A stretch of DNA of 64,000 nt from Botryosphaeria dothidea (taxonomy: Eukaryota > Ascomycota > Dothideomycetes > Botryosphaeriales > Botryosphaeriaceae): NCBI GenBank assembly GCA_011503125.2, contig WWBZ02000001.1:3906001-3970000 (forward strand). The letters are read 5' to 3'. Shown here in pieces: positions 1 to 29,985 of this stretch. Both the position numbers and the translations under genes were made by a program. The notes beneath the pieces were generated by a model, which was given only the letters and a program-made list of their open reading frames with translations, did no database searches and was not told the DNA's origin. The number at the start of each line of letters is the position of its first letter. The stretch's first letter is position 1.

Positions 1-1150
1 AACACCCCTCTCCTCGCTGAACTCCTCTACCATCCGCCTCGCACGTTCCATCAACGTTTCCAACACGCGCTCAGTGTACTCAAAACTGCCGTACTGCCGC
101 AGAAGAGAGACAGCATACCTCTTGACATCGTCATCCCGCGGCCTCTGCTGCACGATGTTGAGGAGGCGGTAGTCCGAAGTGTCTGCCTGAATGCCGTGGA
201 TGATCAGGAACGAGAACTTGCCTTCGGTAAGGTCCTCGCAGAGCCCCTTGGCGTCGCTGTACTGCGCGCTCGCCAGGTTAAGGTAATCGTCTCGGATCTG
301 AAAGAGGACTCCGATGACGTCCGCTAGGGCGCAGAGATCCCTGGGTGATTGGTTAGTGACGGGCTTCAAAAGAAAGCGCTGCGGGGGGTAATTTGACCAC
401 TTACAGCTTGCAGTCGCTCTCCGCCTGCATCAGCTTGATGGCCAGCCGGAATAGCCCGCCGGTCTTCTGAGCCACCATGCTGACGTATTCAGCCTCGGTC
501 GGACACCTGAACGAATCCCGCCAGAACAGATCCAACCCCTGGCCACGGTGCAGCTCGACGAGCTCTTCGCCAAAGATGCGCACAGCGTCTGGATTATCGA
601 GCTTGAGAACTTCCTGCAGCGCAAGGAAGTAGACGTAGTTGGCGCTGTTGATCGTTTGCGCCTCGCCGTAGATGCTGTGCGCCACAGGGATGCCGCGGCG
701 CAGCGTCGAGAAGTCCTCAATGTCGTCGACGAGCAGCGAGGCTGTGTGCAGCATCTCGACCACCCGCGTGATGCCTTCCAGCTTCTCGGTGGGGACGCCC
801 AGCCACTCGTTGAACGCCTGGATCAGCTGTCCGCGGATGTTCTTGCCTTTCTGCTGCAGCAGGTAGTTGTAGGGAGCCAGCAGGACGTCTTCTTGCCGCT
901 TCGTCCACTCCCGGCCTTGCTGGGGGTCGAGCTCTGCAGTTCGGCTTCCATCGTTCAGCGCGGAGTCCGTCGTGTCAGTGGATGCGTCTGAACTGGCGTC
1001 TTTGCCCTTGGGAATCCCAGGTGCAGGAGGCATAGCCCTTGGCAACATGGAGCTCTGGTCGCGGGACTGCCGCCATATCGACATGGATCGCAGGTTACTC
1101 AAGCTGAGCCGGCCCTGCGGATGGGGCTTGTACGTGCTCATTGTAGCCAT
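1..1150 (-). CDS. Geranylgeranyl diphosphate synthase (3' end off the window)
   Basis: Condenses FPP with IPP to GGPP, the probable precursor for the cyclase at 4603. Exon 1 runs 1150-405 and exon 2 340-<1, with an intron at 341-404. The first Asp-rich motif DDIED lies in exon 1 and the second (RDDYLN) in exon 2. Family landmarks [23 protein letters not shown] and KTGGLFRLA are all visible. The first 80 or so residues are a low-complexity extension before the catalytic fold. Two ATGs nine bases apart (1150 and 1141) could start the protein. The stop lies left of position 1. The residue after the first motif is Phe where many fungal GGPPSs have Asn. It may be a cluster paralogue or a housekeeping copy captured by the cluster; proximity to the cyclase favours the former. 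Confidence 0.93.
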
Positions 1151-2268
1151 CTTGGAAGGTGATAATCGGGAAGATCTGTATGGTGTTTCAACAAAACGAA
1201 CAATGAGTGTTCGAGTGGTCTGATCATCTGCGGCCTCATACTAATATCTAATCGGGACGGACAAAGAACGTGGAGCAATATCTAGACGGACAAAGCACGT
1301 GCAACAATACCTGGAACATCTCACAAGCAGCATTGCCCGATGCAGGCATTCTGGCCAGCAAGCTCTTTTACCCCTCCCCTCGTTTTCTCGGGCCGCGAGG
1401 ACTGAAGCGTCGGACCGACTGCTTTTTTTGCCACATGGGGTTAGCAGCCTGTCGGTATTGCGCACGTCGTACCCTTGTCCAGACAGTCCGGAGGAACCGG
1501 CACAATGGTTGAAGTCCTTCGAAGTGAGGCATTGTGTGTATCTGAGAAGAGGTTCAAGAGATGTGTTGCATGGGTAGTGATAAAGCACTCATGAAAACCA
1601 GTTGCGGCTGCAGCACAGACCGGGCACTCATCATCGCTCGAAGACTACATTTAAGAGTTTACATACTTTCTCTCTTTCTAGATGTGCGCTAAACTGCTCA
1701 TACTGTGCTGGAAAATTAGGACATCGATGTCACTGGTCATATGATTTACTTTATCAGAGCTAAATACACGCAAAGTAATCGGAAGATCGAATTTTCAACA
1801 GTCAGGACAGCCTTGGTATACATTTCATTGAGTCCAGGGATAGAGGTACAAAGGGATATAGTGTGGTGGCAAAATTCCATGTAAAAGTCGAACAAAGCAA
1901 GTCATAGGCAGAAATCGTAGCAATCATGTGTTACAGCTTTGGCTCATATCAGAATTTACTTCAATGCATTGATATTGACACTATGAAAACATAAATCCTT
2001 CCAATCTTCTCAATCTTTACTAGTGTGACACAAAACGGTTGATTGCTCCCAATCCCTCTCTATCATCTCTAATCTCTCGTTCCCCTTCCCTTCTACTCTT
2101 CTTGTCCTCCCTGTGACCTCGGTATATGCATTTTCGACACAGTTGAAGATTTAAATAGATGCTGCAAAAAGTCAGGACATTAGATTGAGCTAACAAGTCA
2201 GTCTTGCTCTTCGAGCGCACCTGGGGACGTTCCATGAACGCTTATCGAGATCACGCTAAGAAGCTCTA
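1151..2268. other. Intergenic between GGPP synthase 5' end and P450 3' end
   Basis: No convincing gene; only short unsupported open frames. Apart from the tandem duplication near its left end, it is A+T-richer DNA holding the GGPP synthase promoter and the P450 terminator region. Confidence 0.6.
1256..1313. repeat. Imperfect 29-bp tandem duplication in the GGPP synthase promoter
   Basis: Two adjacent 29-base units, 1256-1284 and 1285-1313, match at 24 of 29 positions and both begin GACGGACAAAG. The second unit contains CACGTG. The pair lies about 105-165 bases upstream of the GGPP synthase ATG at 1150. Confidence 0.6.
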
Positions 2269-4126
2269 TTATTTCACCAGAACCCTAAAGCCCTTGGACT
2301 CCAGCTTGGGGAGCGGAATGAGGAAGTCATGAGTCTGCATGATATCAGACTCGTCCGTCTCATACAACTGAAGGTTGGGGCCACCAGGACGGAACATGAG
2401 GGCCATGAGGATGTTGAGTTCTCCGTAGGCCAAGCTGCAGTATGTCACGTCAGTCATTAGGGCCCAATGGATCAAAGTGGCGAGAAACGTACCTCATGCC
2501 GAGGCAAGAGCGCGAACCCTTGGCGAAGGGGACGTAGTTGCGCTTCAGGGCCGGGTTGACGTTGTCGCCCAGCCACCGCTCGGGAATGAACTCGAAGGGT
2601 TTCTCGTAGACTTTGGGGTCGGTGTGCATCATGAAGGCGGACATGCCGACAGGTACGCCGCGCGGGATGGTCCATTCCTTGTACTGCAGAGCCATGTCGG
2701 GCGATACGCGGGGCAGGCGGTGCATGACACCGTAGCTGAGACTATGGGTCACGTTAGTTAATGATGTGGAGCATGAAGAGAAGTCATGTCTTACCGAAGA
2801 CCCTCATGGATGACTGCCTGAAGGTAAGGCAGCTTCTCGATCTGAGCCCAGGTAGGGAACGTATTGGGATAATCGGCCATGATATCCTTGAGCTCGAGCT
2901 GCAGTCTTTCCCTGATGTGTGGCTTCTGAAGGACGTAGAAGGTGATAAAGTCGAGGGTACGGGCAACGCTGACACTGCCAGCGCCGAAGAGGATCTGTGC
3001 TTCCTTGACGAGGCGGTCGACGGAAAGCTCGGACTCAGGCATGTCGCTGTCAAGGACGTGGCGGAAGAGGGAGGTGCGGCTGCCGTCTGTCTTGGCTTCC
3101 TTTCCACTGCGCTTGTCGGCCATGGCCTTCTCAATGCTTCTCTTGGCAAACTTCCAAAGAGTCAGTCGGAATCGTAGTGACAATGCTGCAGAATGGTAGA
3201 CCTACCTTCTCAAAGTCCTTCGGTCCTTCGCTGTGCGGCAGGATCCACGAGACGACGGATTCGGGGATCCAAGTGATGATCTTGACAAGCCAAGGGAATG
3301 CAACCATGACGGGAATGGACAAGATGACACCGTGGACCAGCTCAAACCAGTCACTGGCGAAGTTGGGATCATCCAAAAAGTCAGGAGCATCATCGGTACA
3401 GATTCTGGTGATGACGTCTCCGGAGAATGCGAAGAAGGCATGATCCAGGCGGACGACGCGGCCGGAGCCACTTAGCTCTTGAAGGCGCTTGTCAAGCTTC
3501 TTAGCGAGTTCGCGGAGCATGGGCTCCATCTTGGTAGCTCCAAGGCGGGAGAAGAAAGGCTCAAGTGGCTTTCTGCGTCTGCGGTGGAGGTCGTGCGGAG
3601 TAGTGAGGAAATGAGAGTCTACACAGTCAGCGTACTGATCAAGCGCGGTAAGAATAAGGTCTTACCTTCAAAGTTCAGGCCTTTGACAAATTCGTGATAG
3701 TTCTCGGTGCGACGGACGCTGCCAGCGACGTAGAGAGTATTGTAAAACTCTCCATCATCGATGGACAGCTCATGGGGATTGATGCGCACAATGGGTCCTT
3801 TGAAATATCAGCAGAGGTGACTAGCAATGGCGAAGACTGGCCAGCTTACCATATTTGTTGTGAAGGTCCTTGATTTTGAAGACATACTTGCCCTGCTTGA
3901 TGACGTCGTAGTAGAACTCGTACCAGCCAGTAAGAGCGGCGATTTTGGGGCCAGGGAAGCGGGCCAGCGGGGAAAGAAAGAGGCGGTAAACGGAAAGCCA
4001 GACCAAGTAGCCAGCAGACAGAACGGCGCCACTCAGGGCTGCTCTGCCAACGAAAGTCTGGGGAAGACGAGCGAGCGCGGCCTGCGTGACCGCAGCAGCA
4101 TTCACGGCGTCAATTGCAGGCGGCAT
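2269..4126 (-). CDS. Cytochrome P450 (trichodiene-oxygenase-like), cluster oxidase 1
   Basis: Probable ER-bound monooxygenase decorating the terpene skeleton. Six exons (4126-3850, 3797-3666, 3618-3206, 3150-2795, 2741-2493, 2434-2269) join in frame to 530 residues, normal for a fungal P450. An N-terminal membrane segment is followed by the Pro-rich hinge RFPGPK. The K-helix ExxR is EGLR, the meander contains PERW, and the heme loop is FAKGSRSCLG with the Cys ligand. The I-helix reads GAGSVSVART, so the usual acidic-Thr pair is not present. It is divergent from the terpene cyclase across 476 bases, suggesting a shared promoter. The exact substrate cannot be read from sequence. Confidence 0.92.
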
Positions 4127-4602
4127 TTTCAGAACACCATGAAAAACATGAACTTGAAGGTTTCGCGTGTTTGCAACTCGAGGAATATGACATTTAAAGG
4201 TACCTGTAGTCTGTTGTTGTTGGTGTTATGTCCGCCCGGCCGGCGATACTGTTGTGCCAACACTTGCGCTCTCCGACATGCTCTTCGGCCCACGGTGCTA
4301 CTCCGAGAGAAAATGCCCCATTAAGCAACGCCGCAAGTAATTCCACCACCGGACCTTCCCGATTATTTTCCGGCGCAGGAACACCATGCCAATGGCCGAC
4401 TCCGCAGGCCGCTAAAACACAGGACTCTAGCGCTTCTCATGTTTCTTCGACAACATCTATTTAGTTCAGAACGCCGGCCTGCAAGCTGTCGTTCACTTCA
4501 AAACCACCTCCATGAGCGCCAGTGACTTCGTTTATCTTACTCTCCTCAACGTTGTCCTTCTCAGCTTCTACATTCTTCTCCAGATTTCTCTCGCCCAGCA
4601 AG
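4127..4602. promoter_or_regulatory. Bidirectional promoter, P450 and terpene cyclase
   Basis: A 476-base gap separates the divergent start codons of the P450 and the cyclase. It contains a CTTCGG core near 4283 related to the cluster motif described below, and a TTTAAA stretch near 4193 that could be a TATA-like element for the P450. Co-regulation is an inference from the layout. Confidence 0.5.
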
Positions 4603-5879
4603 ATGCAGCTCCTCTACTCTAAGCTTGTCGACCCGTCCGAGTACGACATGGACGGGCTCAGCGACCCTCAGCTGGACCTCCGTATCAGCAAGTACGCCGA
4701 CTTCGAGGAGATTGGCACCATCCGCGCCCAGGAGGACTGGAGAAAGCATGTTGGCGGGATCTCCGAATTCTACCGTGGCGGTCTGGGCCCTAGGTTCAAC
4801 TTCATGGCCATTGCCGTGCCTGAGTGCCTGCCTGAGCGCCTCGAGATCATCTCTTATGCCAACGAATTTGCTTTCCTTTACGATGGTTAGCCACCCATGA
4901 ACAACCGCTCGCAAGCGATGAAGCTGACGGAGGGATGCAGACATGGTCGACAACGTCAGCAAGGAGGATGGCGATGAATTGAACGACCAGTTGATGGCTG
5001 CCTTTGCTGAGGCTGCCAAGACGGGCAAGATCACGCAAGCATTGACAGGGAAGAGATATGTTCAAGCCCAGATGCTGCTTGAGATGATGGCCATCGACAA
5101 GCCTCGCGCCCTCGTAGCCATGAAGGCTTGGGCCGAGTTCGTCCAACTGGCGTCCGGTCGTGAGCACTTTACCGATTTCCCCTCCCTGGACGACTATATT
5201 CCTTACCGCATTCTCGACGTCGGTGAAATGTAAGTATAGAATCCCCACCAGAGCCCCAGGCTCGGGTGTCGGTTCCAGATTGAACGCGCTGCTGACTTTC
5301 TCCAGGTTCTGGTTCGGCATGCTCACATTCGGCATGGGCCTGACAATTCCGGAGGAGGAGATCGAGGAGTGCCGCCGCCTCAGCCGCGACGCCTACATCA
5401 TCTTCGGTCTGCAAAACGACCTCTACTCGTGGGACAAGGAGGTCGCAGCGGCCGAGAAGATCGGCCAAAAGCACGTCGTCAACGCCGTGTACGTCATCAT
5501 GAAGGAGCATGGCTGTGGCGTCGAGGACGCCAAGCAGATCTGCCGCCGCGTCATCCGCGAGCACGAGGCCGAGTACATCAAGATGCTGCGCGTCGTCGAG
5601 AAACGCACCGACCTCAGCCCAGATCTCAAGCGCTTCGTCGAGGCCCTGCAGTACAGCTCCACCGGCAATGTGCTCTGGTCCGTTCTGTGCCCCCGCTACC
5701 ACAACCATGTCGACTTCAATGAGCGCCAGTACTACCGCATGAGGCACGGCGCTACCTCCGTCCCGCCCACCCATGACTACGGTATCAAGACTGTCTTCGA
5801 GCCTCCGCAGCCTTTCCTGGCCGCGCCCGCCACTTCCTCCATGGTGACCCAGTCTGTTGAGGTCAAGGCGTCTGCTTGA
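4603..5879 (+). CDS. Stand-alone class I terpene cyclase (fusicoccadiene-synthase cyclase-domain type)
   Basis: Ionises a linear prenyl diphosphate and cyclises it; this is the probable scaffold-forming enzyme of the cluster. Exons 4603-4885, 4941-5229 and 5306-5879 join in frame to 381 residues. The metal-binding motif DDMVD and the second motif NDLYSWDKE are intact. Segments such as GPRF, PECLPERLE, SYANEFAFL and DVGEMFWFG resemble the N-terminal cyclase half of fungal chimeric prenyltransferase-cyclases such as fusicoccadiene synthase. In those proteins a prenyltransferase half follows; here the protein stops after a short tail. GGPP would come from the gene at 1-1150. The ATG at 4603 was chosen because homology starts there; an in-frame codon at 4522 is also possible. 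A C20 substrate is inferred, and a C25 substrate cannot be excluded. Confidence 0.92.
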
Positions 5880-7555: not shown

Positions 7556-9209
7556 ATGGCACCTCAAAATATCGGTATCAAGGCAGTTGAGCTCTATTTC
7601 CCTGCTCAATGTGTTGATCAGGCCGACCTCGAAAATTTTGATGGCGTGGCCCAAGGCAAATACACCATTGGGCTCGGTCAAACTCGGATGAGTTTCTGTG
7701 ATGATAGAGAAGGTTTGTGCCGCCTTGATCTTACTTTTCTCAGCACCACTGACTTGATTCTGCATAGACATCTACTCTTTGGCTTTGACTGCCGTTTCGT
7801 CGCTGTTGAGAAAGTACAATGTCGACCCCAACAGCATTGGGCGTCTTGAAGTCGGCACTGAGACCCTAATCGACAAGTCCAAATCTGTGAAGTCCGTGCT
7901 GATGCAACTATTCCCGGAGAATTCCAACATCGAGGGCGTGGACACGGTGAACGCCTGCTACGGCGGCACAAACGCCGTCCTCAACGCCGTCAACTGGATC
8001 GAGTGTTCGGCCTGGGATGGCCGTGACGCCATTGTTGTAGCCGGAGACATTGCGCTTTACAAGAAGGGCAACGCGCGCCCAACTGGTGGTGCTGGTTGTG
8101 TCGCCCTGTTGATTGGCCCGAATGCGCCCGTTGTCTTGGAGCCCATCCGCGGCTCTTACATGGCGCACGTTTACGACTTTTACAAGCCCGATCTTACCAG
8201 CGAGTATCCGTACGTCGACGGCCATTATTCCATTCGTTGCTACACCGAGGCAATCGATGCCTGCTACAAAGCGTACAACTCTCGCGAGAAGCTCGTCCTT
8301 TCCAATAGCACGTACACGAAAAACAGGACGAATGGTGTCAACGGAGTCAACGGACACAAGCCCGTAAACGGGACGAACGGAGCCAATGGAGTCAACGGCC
8401 ATAACGGTACCAACGGGCACAGCGCCGCCGCCGAGGCGAACGGCATCAACAGCGTCCACAAGGAGGTGCCACTGGACAGGTTCGACTACATGGCCTTCCA
8501 CGCCCCCACGTGCAAACTCGTCAGCAAGTCGTACGCGCGCATGCTGTACAACGACTACCTCTCGGACCCGAAGAACCCCCTCTTCGCTGAAGTACCCGAG
8601 GGCGTCCGCGATCTCGACTACGCGGCTTCCATCTCCGACAAGACCATCGAGAAGACGTTCATGTCTCTGGTAAGCCCGAGCCCACAGCCGCAACGCCCGG
8701 CCCGCAAGCTAACGTGCAGCAGTCGAAGAAGCGCTTCGCCAGCCGCGTCCAGCCGGCCATCCAGGTGCCGACCATGTGCGGCAACATGTACACCGGCAGC
8801 GTCTGGGCGGGCCTGGTCAGCCTGCTGAGCAACGTCGGGTCCGACGAGCTCCAGGGGAAGCGCATTGGCCTCTTTAGCTACGGCAGCGGTCTCGCGTCCT
8901 CGCTGCTATCGTTTAGAGTGAATGGCAGCACGGCGGAGATAACGGATAAGGTGGACCTGCACCGACGCTTGGATGCGCGCGAGGTGGTCGCTCCACAGGT
9001 GTACGATGACGTAAGTAGCCCTCCGGCAACAACCAATGGAAAGATGCAGCCGCGCTGACAGTGCCGAAAAGATGTGCAACCTCCGAGAGGAGGCCCACTT
9101 GAAGAAAGGTTTCAAGCCAAAGGGAGCTGTTGAAAGGATCCTGCCGGGTACCTACTATCTGGAGGAGGTGGATGAGATGTTTCGAAGGATCTACGCCATT
9201 AAAGCCTAG
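7556..9209 (+). CDS. ERG13: HMG-CoA synthase, cluster copy
   Basis: Condenses acetoacetyl-CoA with acetyl-CoA to HMG-CoA, the second step of the mevalonate pathway. Exons 7556-7712, 7768-8669, 8720-9010 and 9072-9209 give 495 residues. Catalytic Cys lies in [10 protein letters not shown], and the His region is [34 protein letters not shown] and [13 protein letters not shown] are further family blocks. Between about residues 238 and 275 is an Asn-Gly-rich insertion built of repeated NGVNG/NGTNG units. The first intron has a weak donor (GTTTGT) but is required for frame. With the thiolase, reductase and mevalonate kinase of this window it forms a cluster-borne early mevalonate pathway. A housekeeping copy is expected elsewhere. 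Confidence 0.95.
8331..8420 (+). repeat. Asn-Gly coding repeat inside HMG-CoA synthase
   Basis: About 90 bases of degenerate AAYGGN-type repeats encode an NG-rich loop. The reading frame is kept. Several fungal HMG-CoA synthases have low-complexity loops in this area, so it may be a lineage feature. Confidence 0.6.
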
Positions 9210-9702: not shown

Positions 9703-11456
9703 ATGACGGCATCATTCCTTCAGCTTGGTCTTGTAGGCGCCTTGGCGCTCTTCTCGTCAATCATCCTTATCATTATCTGGTGGTCTTTTGAGTTTTGGAG
9801 ATACAACAGCACTCTGCGCCAATTTGCTTGGGTGGACGTCAACAATAAGGAATGGTTCCCCAAATTGAAAGCATTTCTGCGAGGGTTCTCAAACGCGCGA
9901 GATGTCATTACCAAAGGATACGAAGAGGTAACCAGCCGATTTTCAACGCGAATTATCAATACTGACTTCCTTTCAAGTATAGCAAGAATGGAAAGATGTT
10001 CGTGACGATCGACCAGACCGGCCGCCCGCAAGTCTTTATTTCTCCTGCGCACCTGGACGAGGCATTGAGAATCGACGGCACAGTCCTGGACGAGCATTCT
10101 TTCTTCCCAATGACCATAGCCGAGAAGTACACATTTGGCGGATACGGGCAACCAATTGGCATCAACGGACAGCATGTTGTCTGCATCCGCGGACTTACCC
10201 GGAACATGCATCGTCTCTCAGAAGACCTCAGCGATGAGACCGAGTATGCTCTGGGGAAGTACTGGGGGCATGAATCGCAATGGAAGGAGGTGAAGCTTGT
10301 CGAAACTTGCAAGTTTCTCACTGGTGCAGTAACGAGCCGGATGCTTGTTGGCTTGCCATTGTGTAAGTCTTTAAGGTTCATATCGTGGATCAAACTAAAG
10401 CTGATATGGTACAGGCCGGAACGAAGAATATCTCGATGTATCCCTCAGGTGGAACAACAGCCTCATGCTTACTGCTGGGCTTATCAACCTCTTTCCTGAC
10501 TCTCTGCAGCCGTACGTCATAGCTACCCTGATTACATACTGGCCACTAACCTCACACCCTGCAGGCTCATTGCACCTCTTCTCATGATCCACACGAAAAG
10601 ACTTACCGACCAAGGTCTCAAGTTTCTGGCCCCTCCTGCTCGAAGCCGTATTTCGGATCGGGAGAATCAAACAGACGGCAAAAGCTGGGAGGAGCCCTTC
10701 GACTACATGAAATTCCTCCTGGACGAACCGAGCGGATTCAATAACTGCATGAACAACAATCCAACCGCTTTAGCCCGGGGCGTCATGATGATCAACGCTG
10801 CCGCCTTCTTCGCATCCGCATACGGCGTCGTGAACGCCTTGCTCGACATCCTGTCCGCGCCGCCGGAGCTCGACCTCATGGAGAAGCTGCGTGCGGAGTG
10901 CGAAGCCGTAGCCAACGATCCGGAAGACAACCTCACCAGCAAGGTCGGCATCAACAAGTTGGTCCACCTCGACTCGGTGGTGCGGGAGAGCATGCGCTTC
11001 AACGCCCTCGACTACACTGCGATGCACCGCTTCGTCAAGCCGAGGGAAGGGTACACGTTCTCCACCGGCGAGCACCTGCCGCAAGGAACGCACATTGTCT
11101 TTCCGTCCGGCCCGTACCAGCACGAGGACGAGCTTTACCCTAATGGGGCCGAGTTTGAGCCATTCCGCTTCTCCGATGAGACTGAAGGGGCTCCCAAGCA
11201 TCATGTAAACGGCCCGGTCAATGCGGTTTCCACTGGTAAGTACCACTTCCCGTGGGGCATTGGCAAGTCGCAGTGCCCCGGAAGGTTCTTTGCGGTGCAC
11301 GAGATCAAGATCATTCTTGCCCACATTCTCTTGAACTACGACATCAAGCCGATGGCTAGGAGGCCTGCGAGCATGCCGATTGGCACCTTCGCGCTTCCGG
11401 ACGAGAGCATCACCATTTCTATCCGGCGGAGAAGCACTGAGAAAATGGAAACGTAG
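9703..11456 (+). CDS. Cytochrome P450 (ent-kaurene-oxidase/GA-type superfamily), cluster oxidase 2
   Basis: Membrane-bound monooxygenase, probably acting on the cyclised terpene. Exons 9703-9927, 9978-10362, 10415-10511 and 10565-11456 give 532 residues. A long hydrophobic anchor (GLVGALALFSSIILIII) opens the protein. The K-helix motif is ESMR and the heme loop is FPWGIGKSQCPGR. Overall spacing resembles fungal diterpenoid P450s of the ent-kaurene-oxidase kind. The I-helix region, NAAAFFASAYG, has no Thr where relatives have an AAIHTTS-like sequence. The ATG at 9703 was preferred because it starts directly before the anchor; an upstream in-frame ATG at 9598 is possible. Regiochemistry is unknown. 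Confidence 0.92.
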
Positions 11457-12997: not shown

Positions 12998-15006
12998 TCA
13001 CACATCGACCTTCTCCCCCGGCACCACCACCCCCTCCGCCTCCACCCCCGACACCGTCTTCTCGCTATCGTCGTCCTTCTTCACCAGCTCCAGCTTCGTC
13101 CACGGCTGCGTCGCGCCCGCAAGCGTCGCCGCCGCGCCGCACGCCGTCGCGAAGATGAACGCCCACTTGAAGCCACCGACGTACGCGCGCAGGATCGCGT
13201 CGAGCTGGGCCCCCTCGAATGACTTGTCCAGGTCCTTCGCGCCCGCGGCAATCACGGCGTGCGGGTCGAGGTCGGGCGCGTACCGCGCGATCAGCGCGAG
13301 CAGGCGGTTCTGGAAGAGCGACTGGCCGGCCGAGACGCTGAGGGCGCCGCCGATGGTTTGGAAGACTGGAACGCGTCAGTGAAGGCGGGAAGGCGGGGTG
13401 GTGGCGTGTGACTTACAGAGCGCCATGGCGGTCGCCGTCGACGTGTCGGCGGTCGCGGCCGTGTTCTGCACGGCCGTCATGGGCACCTGGAAGGCCAGGC
13501 CGTTGCCGATGCCCGCGATGATCTGGTAGCCGATCCACTTGCCCGAGGGCGTGTGCAAGTCCCAGGTGTACATGAGGCCGCTGCCGATGGTGACGAGGCA
13601 GCCGCCGATGACGAGGAAGGGGACGAAGTGGCCGATCTTGCCGATTATACCGCCGGAGAGTATGGTTGAGAAGGCTGGGTGCGGTTAGATCTGAATGTTG
13701 GTTGAGTGGTATGAGAGCGCGCGACTTACTGTGTCCGAGGATGAAGGGGATGAGACGCACGCCGGAGGAGATGGCGTCGGTGCCCTGGACGGCTTGGAAG
13801 TAGATCGGGAGGTAGTAGAGGAGCACGTAAAACACGCCAGCGAGCCTATTCGGTCAGTTCTACAAGGAAAGTGAAAAGAACGCAGGTGGGTTTACAGGAA
13901 GTTGAAGGCAAACGCGTGAGCCAGTCGACGGTTCTTGAGAAGTCTGGCCTGAAGGAGGCCTCTTTCTCCTTGAATCCAGAAGTTGTTGTAGATGAACGCC
14001 GCAGCAATAAGAACGAAACCAATGAGAAGGCCGAAGACCTCGGAATTGTTCCACGCCTTCGACACGCCTCCCCATTCAAGCGCCATCAGGTAACAGGCGC
14101 CCGCAGCACAAATGAGACAGCAGCCGATAGGGTCCATCTGGAGAATCTTCTCCATCAGCGGGGCATCTACCGGTTTCGCGGCATCGGGAGCGTGGAAGAA
14201 CATGGCAATGACGGCCGCCGCCGCACCTCCACAGGGAAGGTTGATGTAGAAGCTGAATGCCATCAGTCAGCGTTACCTAAAATCAATGCGGATTTACATA
14301 CCACCAACGCCAGGAGACGTGATCGGTGAAGGCACCGCCGAGAAGGGGTCCCACGACCGACGCAATACCGTATGCCGCTCCTAGAAGACCGAGCATCATC
14401 GGCAGCTGGTGCGGCGGGCTGGAAAACTTGATGATGATGAACGTTCCCGAAACCAAGCCGGCGAGACCAACGCCGACGACGGCGCGACCGGCGATGAAGG
14501 TCGGGCTGTTTTGGGCGACACCTGTGCAGGACACCTCGTTAGCAGTGGGACGCGGGTATCACTTGGAGAAAGGTGACTGACCGCACAACAGACTACCGAG
14601 TACGAAGAGACCCATAGCAACGAGGAAGACTATTTTCAAGGGAAAGTATTTGTATGCCTTTCCCCAGACAGCCTGGGTGGCGGCGACGGTGAGGAACAGC
14701 GCTGAGCCATACCATCCAACTTGGTCGAGACTTTGAAAGTCCTCAGTAATCTTTGGGATGGCCGGCGTGATGATGGTCTGCGTCGAAGTTTAGTAGAGAG
14801 TAAGTCTGTCACTGGACAGATGCTGCTCACCGAATCTAGAGAAGCCTGTTGTTTGTCAGCCCAAACTTCATCGCCTTTGCATTAATTGAGGAGTTTTCTC
14901 CACTCACCAAAAACATTGAAAGACCTAAAGACAGCACAATGGCGAAATAGGAGAACCCGGTTGGGTATTGCGGCGGAGCCGCATCATCTTCTTTGATGGA
15001 ACCCAT
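12998..15006 (-). CDS. MFS multidrug-type transporter (DHA14, 14-TM)
   Basis: Plasma-membrane or vesicle exporter, likely for the cluster product. Eight exons (15006-14908, 14845-14831, 14777-14582, 14521-14302, 14252-13896, 13845-13730, 13674-13417, 13365-12998) give 542 residues. The second exon is a 15-base microexon encoding five residues (ASLDS), which restores the conserved first-helix motif before TIITPAIP. Other DHA features include [35 protein letters not shown] and repeated Gly-rich helices. The C-terminal tail is acidic and Val-rich. It lies between the P450/SnoaL genes and the regulator, with candidate motif sites in its promoter. Confidence 0.93.
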
Positions 15007-16870: not shown

Positions 16871-18343
16871 CTAACAAACGGAAAATGGAGTGCTGCGTTC
16901 AAAGTTCGTCATGAAAGTCCGCAGCCGATCCTCGAGTTGTTGTATTATCTGAGCCTGCGACTCCTCCTTGGACGAGTTCACCCTCGCCCGCACTTTCATC
17001 AGCAGCCGACCGAGCCGCGATAGCTGAAACAGAAGCAATACGTCCATAACCCGCGACCACTCCCCGCTAGAGTCGATCTGGTAGTCGCCAAGGGAGAGGC
17101 GCCTGTATTCCTGGTGGGCAGCGTTCACGACTTCTTCTTGAAGGATAGAGGACGATGAGGAGGAAGAGAACGGACCGACGCGGGACTGGCTGAAGGCATG
17201 TATCTGCCGGAATGAGGTAATGAGCTTGTCGAAGATCATGAGCACCAGCATCATGACCGATGAAGGCGAGGCGCACCGCGTACACGCCAACAACGTCTCG
17301 CACTGCGTAAGTGATTTCTTGTGTGCTGCGAGCGCCGACTGTGCTAGTAGGAAACTCTCTGTCTCTGTCCATACCGCGGCTTCTTCAAGGGCCGTTATTG
17401 CCAGCTGGACACACTCGCACTTCGGAGAAGACGAAGATGTGGATGAAGTTGACATCGAGGAAGAGAAATTTGCCGCAGAGGACGAAGTAGTGTCAGTATT
17501 CAAGTGAGCGTTGGTGGATTCCGTGATTTGCGTTTGCGGTGGAACTGCCGCTGTAGCCGTAGACTCCTGCGACGGTAATGTCGGCTCGAGCCAGCCATTG
17601 CTCCAGATAGTGGAGGCGAGAGGGGAAAAGGAGTCCAGGCCGTAGAACTCAAGCTCGGCGGGTGAAAATTCACAGTCAAAGTCCGAAAGGTCTGAGAGAA
17701 GCACCGTTAGCAGTGAAAATGGAACTCAGAAGTAAGTCGCGCTCACTGAATGCTGGATCTGCATCTATAGACATTGCATCAGCGCCGATGGATTGTGAGC
17801 GGCTCTCCCTGCAGGACCCATTCGACGTTTCGACCGGAGTTGGTAATTGGTTGTCGCAATCGAGTCCGTCCTCCACGAGCGTAGTCGTCCCGAACATCTG
17901 GGCCTCCCCTGATGCCGAAAGAGCGCGGTCTGGCTCGGCAGAGCTCGGTCTTGACGGTGCAGTGTTTGGGACATCTGGGATCAGGTTCTTGGTGTTCTCA
18001 GCCGCCGACTTCGGGCTGCTTGGTGACCGATCTTTGTTCTGGGCTGGGCCATCGGCCGAAGCGGTGGCATTTTTATTTGACCCAGCACGGCTAGCCCTCT
18101 TGGGATACGTGCACTCAAGGCCCTTGAGCTGGCAGCGTTCACATGCCGGGCAGTCGCCGTTGCACCGAAGCTGCTACAATCAGCACAATCGAGTAAGATG
18201 GAGAGGCTAGGCCCAATTACCTTTTTCTTCCGGCAGTTGACGCAGGCCAGGCGCGATATAGTTGTCGACGCACGTCTGGATGGGGCAGTATTCCCCACTT
18301 GGGACAGGCTGGACTGAGGACGATACTTGAGAGTTGCAAACAT
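16871..18343 (-). CDS. AflR-like Zn2Cys6 transcription factor, probable cluster regulator
   Basis: Nuclear DNA-binding activator candidate. Exons 18343-18221, 18170-17747 and 17691-16871 give 455 residues. The zinc cluster near residues 34-61 reads CVNCRKKKLRCNGDCPAC followed by two further Cys in the spacing expected for a Zn2Cys6 domain. A Ser/Pro-rich middle follows. The C-terminal half (CECVQLAITALEEA, ACTRCASPSSVMMLVLMIFDKLI) matches the pattern of aflatoxin-regulatory (AflR) C-terminal domains. The first intron falls inside the zinc cluster and ends in tandem acceptors TAGCAG; the distal AG restores the normal C-x6-C spacing. It is divergent from the HMG-CoA reductase gene. Confidence 0.9.
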
Positions 18344-19529
18344 ACTCCTCGCGCGGGGCCGGGACCAGGTATCAGGGTAATTTGAGTTTGACTAGGCTAA
18401 CTCTCCAGCAGAGCGGACCAAGGCGCTCTTAAAAATGCATGCCTCGCCAACTGTGTAGGATTGTTCAGCCGGATGTGAGGAAGATAACGGCGAGTAAGCT
18501 GTACGAGTCGGGCTCGCTTCAATGAAATGCTCGTCTCACCAGGGTGCATCAGGCGAGTCGTGGGAGCAAGGATACGCTGTCACGGGCTTCGTGCATCTAG
18601 TTACCACGGGTGGCAATAGTACAACGCTGCAGCAAAAGCCTCGTCACTTGGGCGCCTGAACAGGCAGCTTCTCCGTATACGTATAGCATCGCGGCCCACA
18701 TGTCAGCAATCCTCTGAAGAAGTGGATATTGGCCCCTGGAGACCTTCTTGTATGTAATGGTGCTGCCTGCGCTGAACATGAATGGCGGGTCTGGTCATAG
18801 GGAGCAGGCAAAGGCATGAAGCGGGACTGTAGCCAATGGCATCAGATATGCCCCTGACAAGCGTGCTACGCGAAAAGCCGTTTAGGCAATCGCATCCTTC
18901 CCAAGAGCAGATGGCTTGGCCGGTAAGATGTATTGTGGCTTCTCAAGTTGCGACGGGAAGCAAGAGTGGAGGGTTGGAAGGGAGGGTTGCGGTAGGAGTC
19001 GGAGGCATCGTATTGGGTTAGATTCGGGCATGGCACTCCCGCCGGGAGGCCGTCGGCCAGTACAAGAGGACTGCGGGGTGTACCGAAGAGTACCGGGTAG
19101 GCTGGAGAGCGATCCAGGGACCGCGTGAAGCACCGTGCTCGTCGGTTGCTGCCGTTGCTGGATTTTCGGCACTCCTGTTGATTCATGCGAACTATTTCGA
19201 ACTGGCCCAGCGAGCCGAGCCCGGAGTTGGCTCCCACCTGAGCGCTCTGGGCCCGAGGAGATGGCCATGAGAGATATAGAGTGAGGCAGTCAGCACGGAA
19301 AAAAAAGTATACGACAAGTCCCTTTGTCGCTTTCCCACGCTTATCACGCTTCCCCGTGTCAGTCTTCACAACCAAGCGCCACGGTCCCGCTGTGAGCTTC
19401 AGCGGGTCCACGGACAGATGGCAGAGCCTCGTCGCGGCCTTCTCTTCAACCAACACGATAACCTGGGTTTTCACCGTCCGATTGGCCATCTTTGCGCTAG
19501 CAGTCCACGGGCTGCCCCGGGCGCAAAGT
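18344..19529. other. Divergent region between the regulator and HMG-CoA reductase
   Basis: Probably promoter DNA. It may also hide 5' exons of the reductase: a hydrophobic open frame in phase with exon 1 runs from 19281 and predicts an extra membrane helix (TITWVFTVRLAIFALAV). No intact sterol-sensing domain could be read on the + strand. The long minus-strand open frame at 18866-19591 has no recognisable domain. Confidence 0.45.
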
Positions 19530-21112
19530 ATGCTGTTCCTTGCACTGAATGGGTTGCTCTGCGCAGAGGGGTTGCTAGCATTGGGACTCAAATTACAACG
19601 TAAGTCAACAGCGCTGCATTATTGTTGGATACGGCCGAGGCTGACTAGGCAGTGCACCTGGTCCGGCCGTTTGTGCGCTTGACAGGGTCCATCCACCTTC
19701 GATTAAGCCGCAAAGGCGCGCCGGACGCGGAAGTGGTCACTATGGTCAAGTGTACCTGCGGGATAACAACACTAAGCCGGGACGATAACGACAAAGCTGC
19801 TGAGCCTCCAGTGGCAGCCTCCAAGGACGCGGCAAAGAAGTCGGAGATTTTCTCCATGGCCATCAGCGGCAAGCTGCCGATCCACAGCCTCGAGTCGGCG
19901 GTGGGCGACCACACGGCGGCGGTGGAGATCCGAAGGGCGGTTGTGTCGCAGTCAGGGAGCATCTCGCAGTTGCCGTTTGCGGGCTACGACTTTGCGGCTG
20001 TGCACGGCAGGTGCGCGGAGAACGTGATTGGCTACATGCCTATTCCCGTTGGTGTTGCCGGCCCGCTGGTGTTGGACGGGGCCCGCTACTTCGTTCCCAT
20101 GGCCACGACTGAGGGCGCGCTGATAGCCAGCACGTGTCGCGGCATCAAAGCCATCAACGGCGGGGGAGGAGTTCGGGCTGTGGTCACGGACGACGGAATG
20201 ACGCGTGCGCCGTGCCTGCACTTCCCCAGCGTAACTCAGGCGGCCGCCGCCAAGGCCTTCATCGACTCGCCTGCAGGCCAGTCATTGCTCCGCCAGGCGT
20301 TCAGCTCCACGACACGGCATGGCTCGCTGACCAGTGTGACGACGCGGCTCGTGGGCTCGGACCTGTACCTGCGTTTCAAGGCGCGGACAGGTGAGGCCAT
20401 GGGCATGAACATGGTCGGCAAAGGCGTGCTGGAGGCGCTGACGCGGTTGCAGCAGCTGGCGTTGCCCGAGTTCGCCGAAATGCAGGTGGGCGCGCTGTCG
20501 GCCAACATGTGTGCGGACAAGAAGGCAGCGGCCATCAATTGGATCGAGGGCCGTGGCAAGAGCGTGTGCGCTGAAGCCATCATCCCCGCGGTGGTGGTAC
20601 ACAAGGTGCTCAAGTGCGGGGTGAGCGAGTTGGTGCGGCTCAACACGCGCAAGAACCTGGTCGGGTCCGCGATGGCGGGCGTGTCGGTGGGCGGTTTCAA
20701 CGCGCAGGCAGCCAACATCGTGGCGGCCATCTTCATAGCCACGGGCCAGGACCCGGCGCAGGTCGTGGGCAGCAGCAACTGCATGACCCTGATGGACGAG
20801 TAAGCCCCCCCTGTCTCGCTGAGTGAGCTGCATGCTGATCCGACTTGCAGGTGTCCGAACGGGGATCTCAAAGCGTCGGTAACGATGCCGTCGGTCGAGG
20901 TTGGCACCGTTGGCGGCGGGACGGGGCTGCAGCCGCAGGGAGCCATGCTGGAGCTGCTGGGATTGCGCGATCAGGCGGCGCCGGCAGGCCAGAACGCGGC
21001 GACGCTGGCCAAAATCGTGGCAGGGACCGTCTTGGCTGGCGAGCTCAGCCTGTGTAGTGCGCTGGTGACTCAGGACCTGATCAAGAGCCACATGGCGCTA
21101 AACCGCAAGTGA
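19530..21112 (+). CDS. HMG-CoA reductase, short form (5' end uncertain)
   Basis: Reduces HMG-CoA to mevalonate with NADPH, normally the flux-controlling step. Exons 19530-19599, 19653-20799 and 20851-21112 give 492 residues. The catalytic domain is complete: Glu in [12 protein letters not shown], Lys in [14 protein letters not shown], Asp in [13 protein letters not shown], and the C-terminal His in [12 protein letters not shown] single hydrophobic helix ([19 protein letters not shown]) precedes it. Housekeeping fungal reductases are about 1000 residues or more, with a multi-helix sterol-sensing region. That region is not found here. The ATG at 19530 is the first in frame; the frame is open back to 19281, so upstream exons remain possible. 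Confidence 0.9.
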
Positions 21113-22354: not shown

Positions 22355-23849
22355 TCATCGCCTCCAGAATCTCCAACCATCCTTGTCAGCCACTGTGGCC
22401 TTGCTGTCAGAAGATGCTGCGGCTGCGTTCACGCCGACCAACTTCTCGATGGCCTCCTTGCCCCGAGTCCCGAGAAACCTCTCCCTATCAATGTCCACAA
22501 CCCTTTCTTCATCGTCGGATCGGATACACAGCACCGCTGGCCAGAGCACGCCAGCACCATCACCCGCGAGCGTCGTCTCGAGCATCTCCATCCCCTCATC
22601 CGCCAGCATCCTCTCCAGCTCCACCAGCTTCCGTGAGCCCAACCCCATCTTTTCGAGTGGCCCCTCGCCCTCCCCCTCATCCTCACCATCGCACAGTTGT
22701 CCCACCGCAGAGTGACTAGCAGGCTTCAGCAACACGATGGCACACCCGCCACCACCAGCCCCCGTCAACTTCGCCCACCCAACATCCAGCTCCCCAACCA
22801 GCGCACTCACGCGGTCCAGCTTCGGATGCGACACCCCCAGCGCAACCAACAGCCCATGGTTAATCGCAACGAGCTGTCCCAGCCTCCGCACCGCCTCCCC
22901 GCCAAACCTCCCCCTCGCAGAAATGAGCCTATACGCCGACCGCGTCGCCGCATCAATCGCCCCCATCACCGCATCCACCGCCGGCGGCGCCTCCGCCCGC
23001 AATCCCCTGACCGCCGCGATCCTCTCCGTCGCGCTCCGCGCCTCGCGCGTGTCCACGACCAAGAGCGGCAGCTCCGGGAAGCGGCGCAGCGGCAGCACCG
23101 TCGGCGCCTTCAGGGGGTCCTTGCGCTGGTACAGGACCGCCTTGCCGCCGCTGGCGACGGTGTTGTCGACGCCGCTCGGGTTGCCGTGGATGCACGTCTC
23201 GGCGACGAAGGCCCAGCGGTTGATGAGGTCGATCTGCTGGGCCGTCTTGCGGGCAGGGTGCGCAGCCGGCGGGCGCAGCGCTTTCGACTGCAGGAGGAGC
23301 GCGGTGGCGAAGCAGACGGAGAGGCTGGCGCTGCTGCCGAGGCCGGCGCCGACGGGGATGGTGGAGCGGACCGTGTAGGTGCAGGCGTCCAGCGCGCCGG
23401 GCGAGCTGAGCGAGAGGAGGAGGTAGAGGAAGGCGAAGGCGGAGGATCGGTGGATCTTGCGGGCGTGCTCGGAGAGGGTGGGCGAGACGGCGTTGATGTG
23501 CGGCTGGAGAGCTTCGACGAGCTCGAGGTCGAGGGTTGCCAGGTATTGGTTCTTCTGGTTGCGGCCGAAGCGAGCGTCCCAGGGGAGATCTTCGATGTTC
23601 CAAGTATGGTCCAGATCGATATCGGGGGAGACGAGGGAGATGGTGCGGTTGGACTTGGGAAGGAAGGACACCAGGAGGTAGGAGCGAAGGGATATCGCGG
23701 CGGCGATGGCAGCCTGGATGTTTATTAACTTTGAACAGGGGCTGAAGAGGTATCCTGACCTTGCCGTATACAACAGCGTGTTCTCCACAGACGATGACCT
23801 TTCCAGGTGCCGAGACCATAAAGGAAGGAGCGGGGGTAGATGGCTTCAT
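22355..23849 (-). CDS. ERG12: Mevalonate kinase, cluster copy
   Basis: Phosphorylates mevalonate to 5-phosphomevalonate; GHMP kinase family, cytosolic or peroxisomal. Exons 23849-23760 and 23713-22355 give 482 residues. N-terminal SAPGKVIVCGEHAVVYGK, the ATP loop IPVGAGLGSSAS, HGNPSGVDNTV and the C-terminal GHMP motif KLTGAGGGGCAIVLL are all intact. The intron falls directly after VVYGK and splicing rejoins the conserved AAIAAAISLRSY. Arg/Ala-rich stretches reflect high G+C in the gene body, which creates a 343-residue antisense open frame. It is divergent from the FPP synthase over 1.5 kb and convergent with the HMG-CoA reductase gene. Confidence 0.95.
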
Positions 23850-25173: not shown

Positions 25174-25180
25174 ACTTCGG
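25174..25180 (+). promoter_or_regulatory. Candidate motif site in the FPP synthase promoter
   Basis: ACTTCGG, 155-161 bases before the ATG at 25335, followed by GATCGAAG. Confidence 0.45.
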
Positions 25181-25334
25181 GGCGATCGAAGCAGGTCCGG
25201 CTTTGGCTCAATCTGCGTGCATTCTACCGTTCTCAAACTGTTGAGCAAAGTTAGTATACAGCTTCATTGCCACTCCGCTATGTGGGAAGTCACCTATCTG
25301 ACGTATCTAAAGCATACAGCGACACACCATTATC

Positions 25335-26419
25335 ATGGCCGTTAGTCTTGAGGAGTTCGAGGGCGTTTTCCCAAAGTTGGTCCAGGACCTACTTGCCCAC
25401 TGCAAGCAAAATGAAGCACCTGAGAATATCATCAATTGGTTGGAGAATGTACGTAAAAAATATCCCAAACCGATCTTAAGCCACAACCGCTGACAATTTA
25501 GAACCTGAATTACAACTCTCTGGGTGGCAAATGTAACCGTGGGATGGCAACTGTTGATGCCTGCTCAATCTTGCTTGGCCGCGTCTTGAGTGAAGAGGAG
25601 TTCTTCTTATCTGCTACCCTTGGCTGGGCTGTGGAGCTTCTCCAGGCTTTCTTTCTCGTTTCGGATGATATCATGGACTCGTCCATCACACGTCGCAACA
25701 ATCCGTGCTGGTACCTTTTACCCCAAGTCAGGATGATTGCGATAAACGATGCCTTTATGCTCGAGTCCTCCATCTACGTTCTCCTGAAGAAATATTTCCG
25801 GAGCCATCAGAGCTACGTTGACCTCCTCGAGCTTTTCCACGAGGTCACCTTTCAGACTGAGCTTGGGCAGGCCAGCGATTTGCTCACTGCCGAGGAGGTC
25901 AGCTCTTCCAATTTCTCTCTGGAGAAATATGTCTTCATCGTCACCTACAAGACCGCATACTACAGTTTCTATCTTCCAGTCGCTCTTGCTCTACACTTCT
26001 GCAACAAAGCCACTCCGAAGAACTTACGAACGGCAAAGGAGATCCTCATTCCTATGGGAGAGCTCTTTCAAGTGCAGGATGACTACCTTGACAACTTTGC
26101 TGATCCAGCCGTACTCGGCAAAGTTGGCACGGATATCAAAGATAACAAGTGCTCATGGCTTGTTGTCCAGGCACTGATGATTGCTACACCAGAGCAACGC
26201 AAGGTGCTTGAGGACAACTATGGCCGGAAGGGAGATAGGGAGGAGGCTGCGGTGAAGACGCTGTATGATGAACTCAATTTACAGAAGGCCTATGAAGATC
26301 ATGAGGAAAGGCGAACAAATGAAATCAGGGACCTGATTTCGAAAGTTGATGAACATGAGGGCCTGGAGAAGGACGTGTTTGAGATGTTTCTCAAGAAGAT
26401 CACCAAGCGTAGTAAATAG
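25335..26419 (+). CDS. ERG20: Farnesyl diphosphate synthase, cluster copy
   Basis: Makes FPP from DMAPP and IPP, supplying the GGPP synthase. Exons 25335-25448 and 25502-26419 give 343 residues, standard for the family. The first Asp-rich motif is [11 protein letters not shown], preceded by QAFFLVS with the aromatic residues that limit chain length to C15. The second is QDDYLDNF followed by [12 protein letters not shown]. No mitochondrial presequence is evident. A housekeeping copy should exist elsewhere because FPP is essential for sterols. Its presence beside a C20 synthase suggests a dedicated FPP pool, although an FPP-derived side product is an alternative. Confidence 0.95.
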
Positions 26420-26800
26420 CTGCATTCTAAAATTGAGTTCTTTGCTTGCAATATGAGAACATATTCTCGAATGAAATCTCTTCCATGACTATGGCACTTG
26501 ATGCTACTATCCTCATAGATAGCTGTCGCGTCCTGATATCAACATCCCTCAATGTAATAAATTTACTCAGCTTGACCTCAAATAAGACATAGATAGCTTG
26601 TAAAAAGGACAGATAGCTCTATCCCGCTGAGAGCGAGTACACACGATCTTGGGATTGTCGAACTTGAGGCTGCAGAGAGCACCCTCAAACAAAAAGAAGT
26701 CAGCAAAGATCTGGCAGGAAGAAGAAAGGGAGCACAGTCGAAGGATCGATGGAATTCAAGGGCATGAAGATATTGATTCAGCGGGAGATAGCAAAGCTAT
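26420..26800. other. Convergent 3' intergenic region
   Basis: Gap of 381 bases between the FPP synthase stop and the thiolase stop. Nothing else is seen. Confidence 0.6.
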
Positions 26801-28157
<1,357 letters not shown>

Positions 28158-29047
28158 GATACGCCGAAACTATTCGAACTTGATGGAAGAAGCTCCCAGA
28201 TGATGCAAGATGTTTGTCGATTTTTGGAGGGATCGAGACGAGGAATCTACAGCACACATAGTCATTTGATCTGGGCCTCCAGCCCGTAGATAATCTTCTT
28301 ACAAAAACGGGCTTTGCTGAGGTTCATGTTATCGATCTAACCCCAATAAGCCTGTGATTCTACACTTGCGAAAGAGCATTTCGATGGCGAGAGTGTTCTA
28401 GGGCTTGTACGGGCAGGACTACTCAAAAAGGCATGGTACAGCATGACGAGATAGGTTCGGGGCCGAAATCCCCGCCCCGAAGGGTCTTACCCAATCAGGA
28501 ATTCAGCCGAACCGTCCGAAGCAGCCACATGGCGCGGAGTTCGGCAAGTCCTTATATTGATAAAGCCGAGAAGTGACAAGACGTGTCGAAGGTGAGGATC
28601 ACTACAGCATAGTTACTTTGGCGTCTCCTGGCAGAATAATCTGGGAAAAGCGTTTGGGTGCACTAAAGATACCCGGACAGGTGGGAATATATTGGTAGGA
28701 GAGTGACGTGCCGTCACGTTCCTTTGAAACAAGCTGAATTGTACTCATACTGAAATGGAAGGAAGACGAAGACATTGTAACTCTACCTATATAATACATG
28801 TTCCAGAATTAAATTTATCAACGGTAAAATTTCTACATGAAATCCTTACCACGTCGGGTAATATTCGACCCGGAAAAATACCCACGATCCGAAACTCCTC
28901 CAATTACATTGAAGCGAGCGAATGAGAGTGGGCCAATGAAACAGCCACCAAGTTCAGCTTATAAGAACTGATTCACCATTCTATTCTCTAGGAGTCATTT
29001 CTTTACAAAAGTTACATTTTTTTCCATTGACTTCTTTTTCCGTCATC
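28158..29047. promoter_or_regulatory. Divergent promoter region, thiolase and SDR
   Basis: Holds CCAAT at 28933-28937 and TATAAG at 28960-28965, well placed for the SDR start. CCGAAG cores near 28478 and 28516 are near-matches to the cluster motif. No gene is supported. Confidence 0.5.
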
Positions 29048-29985
29048 ATGCACGTGATCCTCACTGGTGCTACAGGCCTCATCGGCTCGGGTGTTCTCGC
29101 CCAGTTGCTCGCGCACATGAAGTCTGGTGGGCCAATCACTCGTGTCTCTATCCTCAGCAGAAGCCCTGTACCGATGGCTGAGGGCAAGGCAAATGTGGTG
29201 GTTATTCGCCATGCTGATTTTAAAAACTACCCGCCGGAGGTACTGAAAGAACTGTCTGGTGCTGAGGCATGTATCTGGGCTCTTGGAGTCAGCCAGACGC
29301 AGGTTGGGAAAGAGTAAGCTCATAACACTGCGCGCATCATTAAGCTGATGATTGAAGAAACTAATTTCGGCACAGGGAGTATGTCACAATCACGCAGGAT
29401 TATCCACTTGCAGCTGCACAGGCCTTGTCAAGACTATCTGAAGTGTTCAAATTTGTCTACGTATCAGGTTCGTTTTTCTTCATGTCTGCAATGACAACGT
29501 AACAGGGACTCACGGCTTTCCAGGAGAGGGTGTAAGTCCAACCTCCAAAGACGGGCCACTTTTGTAACCATGAGAACATGCTCTTAACCTCTTACCTCAA
29601 GGTCACACAAACACCAGGCTACTTTACTCCCTTCTTCGCTCGCGTCAAAGGAGAGACTGAGACCCAACTATTGGCCCTCCCGAAGACGTGCCCTTCTCTC
29701 CGGCCCTTCTCCATACGGCCCTTTTACATCGACAGAGCCAACCATCCGGAGGTCATCGAAGCCCAGCGACACCGTCCCAGCATGAGTGACTACTACGACA
29801 TACTTGGCCCGGTCGTTCGTCGTTTCACTAGTATACATTCTCCAACAGAGCTGTTGGGTGACTTCATGATCAAGTTGGCGGTTGGTAACGGGGCACCGCT
29901 CCAAGGTGACGATCTCTTGGGTGGTGGGCGAATCATACCAAACAAGGCGTTCCGAAGAATTATGAAGGAAGAGACAGGTGCTTAA
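29048..29985 (+). CDS. Atypical SDR, NAD(P)-binding epimerase/dehydratase-like
   Basis: Rossmann-fold oxidoreductase of unknown substrate. Exons 29048-29313, 29376-29467, 29524-29531 and 29602-29985 give 249 residues. The nucleotide-binding loop GATGLIGSG is at the N-terminus. SVSILSRSP-like strand 2 sequence and the motif VYVSGEGVTQTPG are typical of the HTATIP2/YbjT-like atypical SDR group. The third exon is only eight bases; without it the frame breaks, and with it the conserved GEG is restored. There is no canonical YxxxK; the Tyr-Lys pair may be YFTPFFARVK. It may be the right border gene of the terpene cluster. A role in product tailoring is inference. Confidence 0.82.

Follow-up and report, generated by a model that had tools for sequence, protein, structure and literature searches.

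A predicted terpenoid gene cluster of Botryosphaeria dothidea with second copies of mevalonate-pathway genes

Why should a fungal terpenoid gene cluster carry genes of the mevalonate pathway that are also present elsewhere in the same genome? The question is raised by a 64,000-nucleotide stretch of the Botryosphaeria dothidea genome (here called the window; C1:3906001-3970000, on contig WWBZ02000001.1 of assembly GCA_011503125.2, window position p being C1:3906000+p), in which a terpene cyclase gene lies among genes for acetoacetyl-CoA thiolase (AACT), hydroxymethylglutaryl-CoA (HMG-CoA) synthase (HMGS), HMG-CoA reductase (HMGR), mevalonate kinase (MK), farnesyl diphosphate (FPP) synthase (FPPS) and geranylgeranyl diphosphate (GGPP) synthase (GGPPS). 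An earlier sequence-only reading of this DNA had proposed a self-supplied precursor line, and had suggested that genes for phosphomevalonate kinase (PMK), mevalonate diphosphate decarboxylase (MVD) and isopentenyl diphosphate (IPP) isomerase (IDI) could lie to the left of the window. We consider it likely, from the predicted genes and their relatives, that the locus is a terpenoid, and most likely a diterpenoid, biosynthetic gene cluster with a dedicated and probably feedback-free precursor line that borrows a single housekeeping step.

Mevalonate-pathway genes and their second copies

The cluster consists of 14 recognised genes in 31,399 bases (window positions 1-28157 and a further 3.2 kb leftwards; Table 1), with the isoprenoid genes interleaved with a class I cyclase, two cytochrome P450s, an MFS transporter, a SnoaL-like protein and a Zn2Cys6 regulator. 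Spliced genes were predicted with a purpose-written small dynamic-programming gene finder, the cluster models were checked with Pfam, and three of them (cyclase, GGPPS and FPPS) were compared with solved structures; gene starts and splice sites are predicted, not drawn from transcripts. Every gene named in the sequence-only reading is present by Pfam and, for both prenyl synthases, by solved-structure relatives, and its right edge of 29985 is better set at 28157, the thiolase start codon, as the open reading frame (ORF) near 29048 has no shown link to the cluster. Open spliced models were obtained for all genes but two, of which the regulator has approximate exon limits and HMGR an approximate 5' end, and the Pfam matches mostly span most of the profile, with the exception of P450 B, the SnoaL-like protein and the AflR part of the regulator.

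Table 1. Genes of the B. dothidea cluster in order from left to right. Positions are those of the window unless a contig coordinate is given.
Gene	Position	Strand	Profile matches and model
MVD, second copy	C1:3902759-3903997 (L012:6759-7997), left of window	-	PF18376 E 4.9e-59; PF22700 E 1.2e-54
IDI, second copy	C1:3904521-3905385 (L012:8521-9385), left of window	+	TIGR02150 165.1 bits; NUDIX E 2.2e-17
GGPPS, second copy	-56 (C1:3905944)..1033 or 1150 (start codon)	-	PF00348 E 1.1e-71
Cytochrome P450 A	2269..4126	-	PF00067 E 3.6e-52; 6-exon model
Stand-alone class I terpene cyclase, 381 aa	4603..5879	+	PF19086 E 2.3e-25
HMGS, second copy	7556..9209	+	PF01154 E 5.5e-92; PF08540 E 1.8e-102
Cytochrome P450 B	9703..11456	+	PF00067 E 4.1e-25, C-terminal part of profile only
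Small SnoaL-like protein, 123 aa	11998..12369	+	PF12680 E 0.003, below cut-off: weak
MFS transporter	12998..15006	-	PF07690 E 1.3e-47; PF06609 (TRI12) E 3.1e-9
Zn(II)2Cys6 transcription factor	~16871..18343, exon limits approximate	-	PF00172 E 2.5e-9
HMGR, second copy	~19440..21112, 5' end approximate	+	PF00368 E 2.9e-129 (model starting at 19742)
MK, second copy	22355..23849	-	PF00288 and PF08544 (model without GEHA segment); two-exon model includes GEHA segment
FPPS, second copy	25335..26419	+	PF00348 E 4e-77; best solved relatives are FPP synthases (1fps E 1.4e-98)
AACT, second copy	26801..28157	-	PF00108 E 2.7e-58, PF02803 E 7e-45 (model without first exons); four-exon model intact

Six of the seven enzymes leading from acetyl-CoA to IPP and dimethylallyl diphosphate (DMAPP) are represented in the cluster (AACT, HMGS, HMGR, MK, MVD and IDI). 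The late genes looked for to the left of the window are there in the case of MVD and IDI, but not in that of PMK, whose only detected copy is on contig C29: a genome search with TIGR01219 returned a single locus, C29:471547-473008, split into two partial matches that both score under the whole-protein cut-off of that model, and none in the cluster. A genome search with PF00288 gave seven loci, and the two in the cluster are MVD and MK only, with no hidden PMK. As far as these searches reach, PMK appears to be single-copy in the genome.

Each of the eight isoprenoid genes has another, diverged copy in the assembly (51.7 Mb, 78 contigs), at 51-87% identity (all percentages being local identities). 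These paralogues are at C7:501257 for AACT (77%; also C18:1092731, 44%), C29:3995367 for HMGS (72-87% per piece), C2:801131 for HMGR (56-60%), C12:4119512 for MK (52%), C1:3286884 for MVD (62%), C8:466954 for IDI (75%; 54% in the first exon), C1:4993827 for FPPS (69%; two more relatives at 58-61%) and C18:2606381 for GGPPS (51% over most of the length, 57% in a shorter piece). They are scattered over seven contigs, and the MVD and FPPS copies on C1 are hundreds of kilobases from the cluster. The cluster occupies 0.06% of the assembly, and a chance gathering of eight such genes is therefore not credible. The proposal of a self-supplied precursor line thus gains support from the diverged second copies and from the adjoining MVD and IDI genes, and a check of whether the cluster genes were the only genomic copies did not refute it, none of the eight being single-copy.

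In the cluster HMGR the catalytic domain follows a short hydrophobic N-terminal stretch, which from about position 19449 matches Lasiodiplodia theobromae P0242. Pfam finds no sterol-sensing domain in it and gives PF00368 alone (model starting at 19742); the other HMGR copy, at C2:801131, has such a domain (PF12349, E 2.1e-15). The sterol-sensing domain mediates sterol feedback on HMGR, and because the cluster enzyme has none it should escape this control. We also note a terpene-synthase-like match at C2:808030 (E 1e-6), about 6 kb from the full-length HMGR gene (region C2:801131-808428).

Terpene cyclase, prenyl synthases and predicted product

The best solved relative of the cyclase is fusicoccadiene synthase (PaFS) of Phomopsis (Diaporthe) amygdali, matched both in entry 9b3t (E 7e-116) and in 5er8, an entry for its cyclase domain, which aligns with residues 1-339 of the 381 (E 2.9e-113). 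The metal-binding motifs are kept, with DDMVD at residue 94 and NDLYSWDKE at residue 228. A fused C-terminal prenyltransferase is absent, Pfam giving terpene synthase domains only and the next gene model, at 7556, being HMGS. The predicted stand-alone form is not new in itself, given that fungi have many such relatives: 129 proteins match at E <= 0.001, and among the best 120 of the 129 many are 300-400 aa long. Among the matches listed, Macrophomina phaseolina P0001 is by far the nearest (84%), the others being at most 54% identical.

Of the two prenyl synthases, the left one is a GGPPS and the right one an FPPS, as judged from their solved-structure relatives. The GGPPS scores 365 bits against 6v0k ('Terpene synthase'), 362 bits against 9q3i ('Copalyl diphosphate synthase') and 335 bits against GGPP synthases such as 9zb8 and 2q80, and its motifs DDIED and DDYLN are kept; the FPPS likewise keeps its metal-binding motifs. 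The notion that the GGPPS is a split-off prenyltransferase half of PaFS is unsupported, the score to that domain being 190 bits as against 335 for the GGPP synthases and 362 for the copalyl diphosphate synthase. Elsewhere in the genome an extra FPPS-like gene (58% identical to the cluster FPPS) is situated about 2 kb from a terpene-synthase-like match (C58:3644104-3647272), and this pair is possibly another terpene cluster having its own FPPS. The 123 aa SnoaL-like ORF may encode a further tailoring enzyme. The Pfam scans of the cluster models revealed no polyketide synthase (PKS) or non-ribosomal peptide synthetase (NRPS) core.

These assignments suggest how the cluster would work. Once it was switched on, the extra enzymes would take acetyl-CoA to mevalonate and then to IPP and DMAPP, with an HMGR that would escape sterol feedback for want of a sterol-sensing domain, and with mevalonate phosphate passed to the single housekeeping PMK and then returned to the cluster MVD and IDI. 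The GGPPS would make GGPP, either from the FPP of the cluster FPPS or from DMAPP, and as a separate enzyme would replace the prenyltransferase half that PaFS has in the same chain. The stand-alone cyclase would fold GGPP, the P450s would oxidise the product, and the MFS protein would export it.

The mevalonate genes might in addition feed sterols, a meroterpenoid, or a sesqui-, sester- or triterpenoid, the cyclase being then one consumer among others and the FPPS an output branch as well as a step towards GGPP. FPPS and GGPPS are separate within one cluster, there are many other terpene synthase loci in the genome (13 matches), and the solved relatives of the cyclase include TvTS and stellatatriene synthase, the latter a C25 enzyme. 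PaFS, a C20 enzyme, is nonetheless clearly the closest of them (391 bits, compared with 305 for TvTS), and a GGPPS lies within the cluster, so that we regard such an additional output as rather improbable. A C20 product is likely from the same comparison, although the more distant relatives include C25 and C30 enzymes, TvTS being of the C30 type in the accessible part of PMC10563020.

Regulation, relatives and competing explanations

The Zn2Cys6 factor is a probable pathway regulator. It had been called AflR-like, a name that is weakly founded. In a Pfam scan of pieces joined by hand from the reading frames the zinc cluster domain bears it out in part, but the AflR profile itself (PF08493) reaches 19.2 bits, under its 24-bit cut-off, and the cluster promoters show no enrichment of AflR-type sites. 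Two six-base words seemed at first count to be shared sites, TTCATG (12 of 14 cluster promoters, 2 of 26 controls) and CCGGCC (8 of 14, 1 of 26). Both were rejected, as these counts involve overlapping divergent promoters; on non-overlapping stretches the p values are 0.00075 and 0.0022 respectively, among 2079 words.

Relatives of the supply genes were compared in two trees, from listings in which each row is a 90% cluster of other people's gene models. The MVD tree, made by the careful method, has 28 proteins, 27 from the 120 listed matches (P0121 being the cluster protein) and one of our own. The cluster protein forms one clade with L. theobromae P0122 and L. hormozganensis P0151 (100/100), apart from all other MVDs in the sample, and the other MVD of B. 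dothidea falls with Neofusicoccum and Diplodia (100/98). An approximately unbiased (AU) test does not reject a single clade of the cluster and other Botryosphaeriaceae MVDs (p 0.217; 0.283 when Phyllosticta and Saccharata are added), a result compatible with duplication within the family as well as with transfer, and one that does not date the event.

The HMGR tree was made by a quick method with no bootstrap, and has 35 rows, 33 from the 120 listed matches and two of our own, the cluster protein being represented by its short model; the search took proteins of 0.55-1.75 times the query length, and full-length housekeeping reductases are largely missing from it. The cluster protein and L. theobromae P0242 group together (SH-aLRT 99), inside a set from Neofusicoccum parvum, Pyrenochaeta, Phaeosphaeriaceae, Aureobasidium, Elsinoe, Phoma and lichen fungi, and away from both the other B. 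dothidea HMGR and the Aspergillus cluster HMGRs. Identities to Lasiodiplodia are 74% for MVD and 78% for HMGR (67% for HMGR over a longer stretch). P0122 and P0242 are both recorded on a contig of 953742 bases and are probably on one and the same contig. Within the same tree the short HMGRs of N. parvum (P0243), a Pyrenochaeta sp. (P0244) and a Phaeosphaeriaceae fungus (P0353) form a clade of their own (SH-aLRT 100). These fungi belong to different orders, and transfer of an accessory HMGR between them is possible.

Several observations weigh against a diterpenoid cluster with its own precursor line. PMK is missing from the predicted genes, and the supply line is accordingly not closed or self-contained as modelled. 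The palindrome TCGN5CGA occurs in one of 14 cluster promoters and two of 26 controls, TCGSWNNSCGR in none of 14 and four of 26, and among the 2079 six-base words in 13 cluster intergenic stretches and 31 controls only runs of C stand out after multiplicity. Promoter sequence thus adds no support for co-regulation beyond clustering itself. Finally, there is no sign that the supply cassette and the cyclase move as a unit: Macrophomina, the source of the nearest cyclase, appears by name nowhere in the 120 listed MVD or the 120 listed HMGR matches, nor does Lasiodiplodia in the best 120 of 129 cyclase matches. This last point would be weak either way, and the same listings offer weak hints that supply genes and cyclase are combined differently across the Botryosphaeriaceae.

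The missing promoter signature is also what might be expected of a silent or decaying cluster, whose genes were gathered once and are no longer expressed or functional. We think this distinctly unlikely, since 12 of the 14 spliced models are open, most Pfam matches, with the three exceptions named above, extend over the greater part of the profile, and MVD and HMGR are retained in Lasiodiplodia at the identities given above.

A different role for the extra enzymes would be self-resistance, the product or an intermediate inhibiting the mevalonate pathway and the second copies serving as insensitive targets, as proposed for HMGR in statin-type clusters. The cluster HMGR is only 56-60% identical to the other copy, and a second-copy HMGR beside core genes has been used to predict HMGR inhibitors, including in a cluster family with a sesquiterpene cyclase (PMC10734572). 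That study lists 26 fungal matches in which a terpene synthase or cyclase lies close to HMGR, of which several are near other sterol genes or are not clusters and one family is read as possible inhibitor clusters, and it cautions that HMGR matches near other sterol genes may be no more than that. Resistance, moreover, would require a second copy of the inhibited enzyme alone, whereas here there are eight spares, for six pathway steps and two prenyl synthases, and no PKS or NRPS core recognised in the scanned models; we judge this explanation very unlikely.

That these are ordinary housekeeping genes lying together, or an artefact of assembly, is hardly to be entertained: other contigs look partly duplicated, but nothing of the kind was found for the cluster itself, all eight isoprenoid genes have dispersed paralogues, the window has no N and is inside a 6.1 Mb contig, and other contigs, of up to 46 kb, also carry an HMGR with 99% identity across 79% of the query. 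Housekeeping genes lying together by chance are ruled out by the copy counts, and recent tandem copying of housekeeping genes is unsupported at identities of 51-87%.

To the left of MVD the nearest predicted gene ends near -8085, and to the right of AACT there is only the ORF near 29048, a weak NAD-binding one, and then a further P450 gene (33317-35284, PF00067 E 2.4e-42) about 5 kb past the thiolase, which is a candidate cluster member. Outside the cluster are a polysaccharide lyase family 4 gene on the reverse strand (42195-44426; PF14686, PF14683), which we take to be of the rhamnogalacturonan lyase type, and a large gene model (53812-58220) carrying DKTGTLT and TGDGTND, presumably P-type ATPase motifs, in its translation. 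Family matches elsewhere in the assembly came in equal-score pairs (C36:3072639/C78:2186954, C36:746242/C69:2080412 and C36:3721828/C78:2836153), and parts of C36, C78 and C69 look duplicated.

Comparison with known systems

The cluster with its proposed precursor line has partial counterparts in other fungi, and clusters having both HMGR and GGPPS are already known. We found no fungal cluster as complete as this one in searches of one open-licence library, a weak negative as most subscription journals are outside it, and none is described in the accessible text of PMC13412983 (a 2026 review of the fungal mevalonate pathway), PMC13293291, PMC10563020, PMC8336260, PMC7603203 or PMC10175467. What should surprise specialists is the completeness of the pathway together with the single omitted step.

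The PbcR ent-pimaradiene cluster of Aspergillus nidulans (AN1592-AN1599) is similar in having an extra GGPPS and HMGR with a diterpene synthase, a P450 and a Zn2Cys6 regulator. Its HMGR and GGPPS genes rise together with the diterpene synthase, and precursor supply is proposed by its authors in the accessible part of PMC3323652, where HMGR is the sole mevalonate-pathway enzyme of the cluster. Its cyclase is of the CPS/KS type, in contrast to the class I PaFS-kind cyclase of B. dothidea, and its 416 aa reductase AN1593 (P0315) falls in a different clade of the quick HMGR tree from the B. dothidea cluster HMGR. PaFS, the closest solved relative of the B. dothidea cyclase in its cyclase domain, differs in being a fusion of cyclase and prenyltransferase where the B. 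dothidea enzyme stands alone.

Within the same family, the co-expressed gene clusters of N. parvum (Massonnet et al.) are said to belong to the mevalonate pathway in the accessible part of the review PMC9415585, through which alone they are known to us, and an earlier report of a related cluster in the Botryosphaeriaceae may therefore exist in the N. parvum work. The short N. parvum HMGR P0243, however, is 65% identical and in the quick tree groups with Pyrenochaeta rather than with the B. dothidea cluster HMGR.

We tentatively suggest, as a conjecture with rather more against it than for it, that the supply genes are a separable module, an old second mevalonate pathway that skips only PMK, is free of sterol feedback, and is paired with different cyclases in different Botryosphaeriaceae (Botryosphaeria and Lasiodiplodia sharing the module, Botryosphaeria and Macrophomina this cyclase). 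If so, the single shared PMK would be a joint of primary and secondary isoprenoid metabolism. A cluster that duplicates six of the seven steps to IPP and DMAPP, together with both prenyl synthases, makes it testable whether fungi keep secondary isoprenoid flux apart from that to sterols, and which step can stay uncopied. A reductase with no sterol-sensing domain together with a shared PMK would offer a natural design for terpenoid supply, and extra copies of mevalonate genes are suggested as markers for finding terpenoid clusters in fungal genomes.

The separable module would then be a fungal counterpart of the mevalonate cassettes of Streptomyces, in which, according to the accessible text of PMC4650096, the mevalonate-pathway genes likewise adjoin, and serve, a secondary-metabolite isoprenoid cluster. 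Those cassettes have six genes (HMGR, HMGS, IDI, PMK, MVD and MK) in hosts that otherwise use the non-mevalonate pathway, whereas the B. dothidea cluster lacks PMK, includes AACT, and is found in a host that already has the whole pathway.

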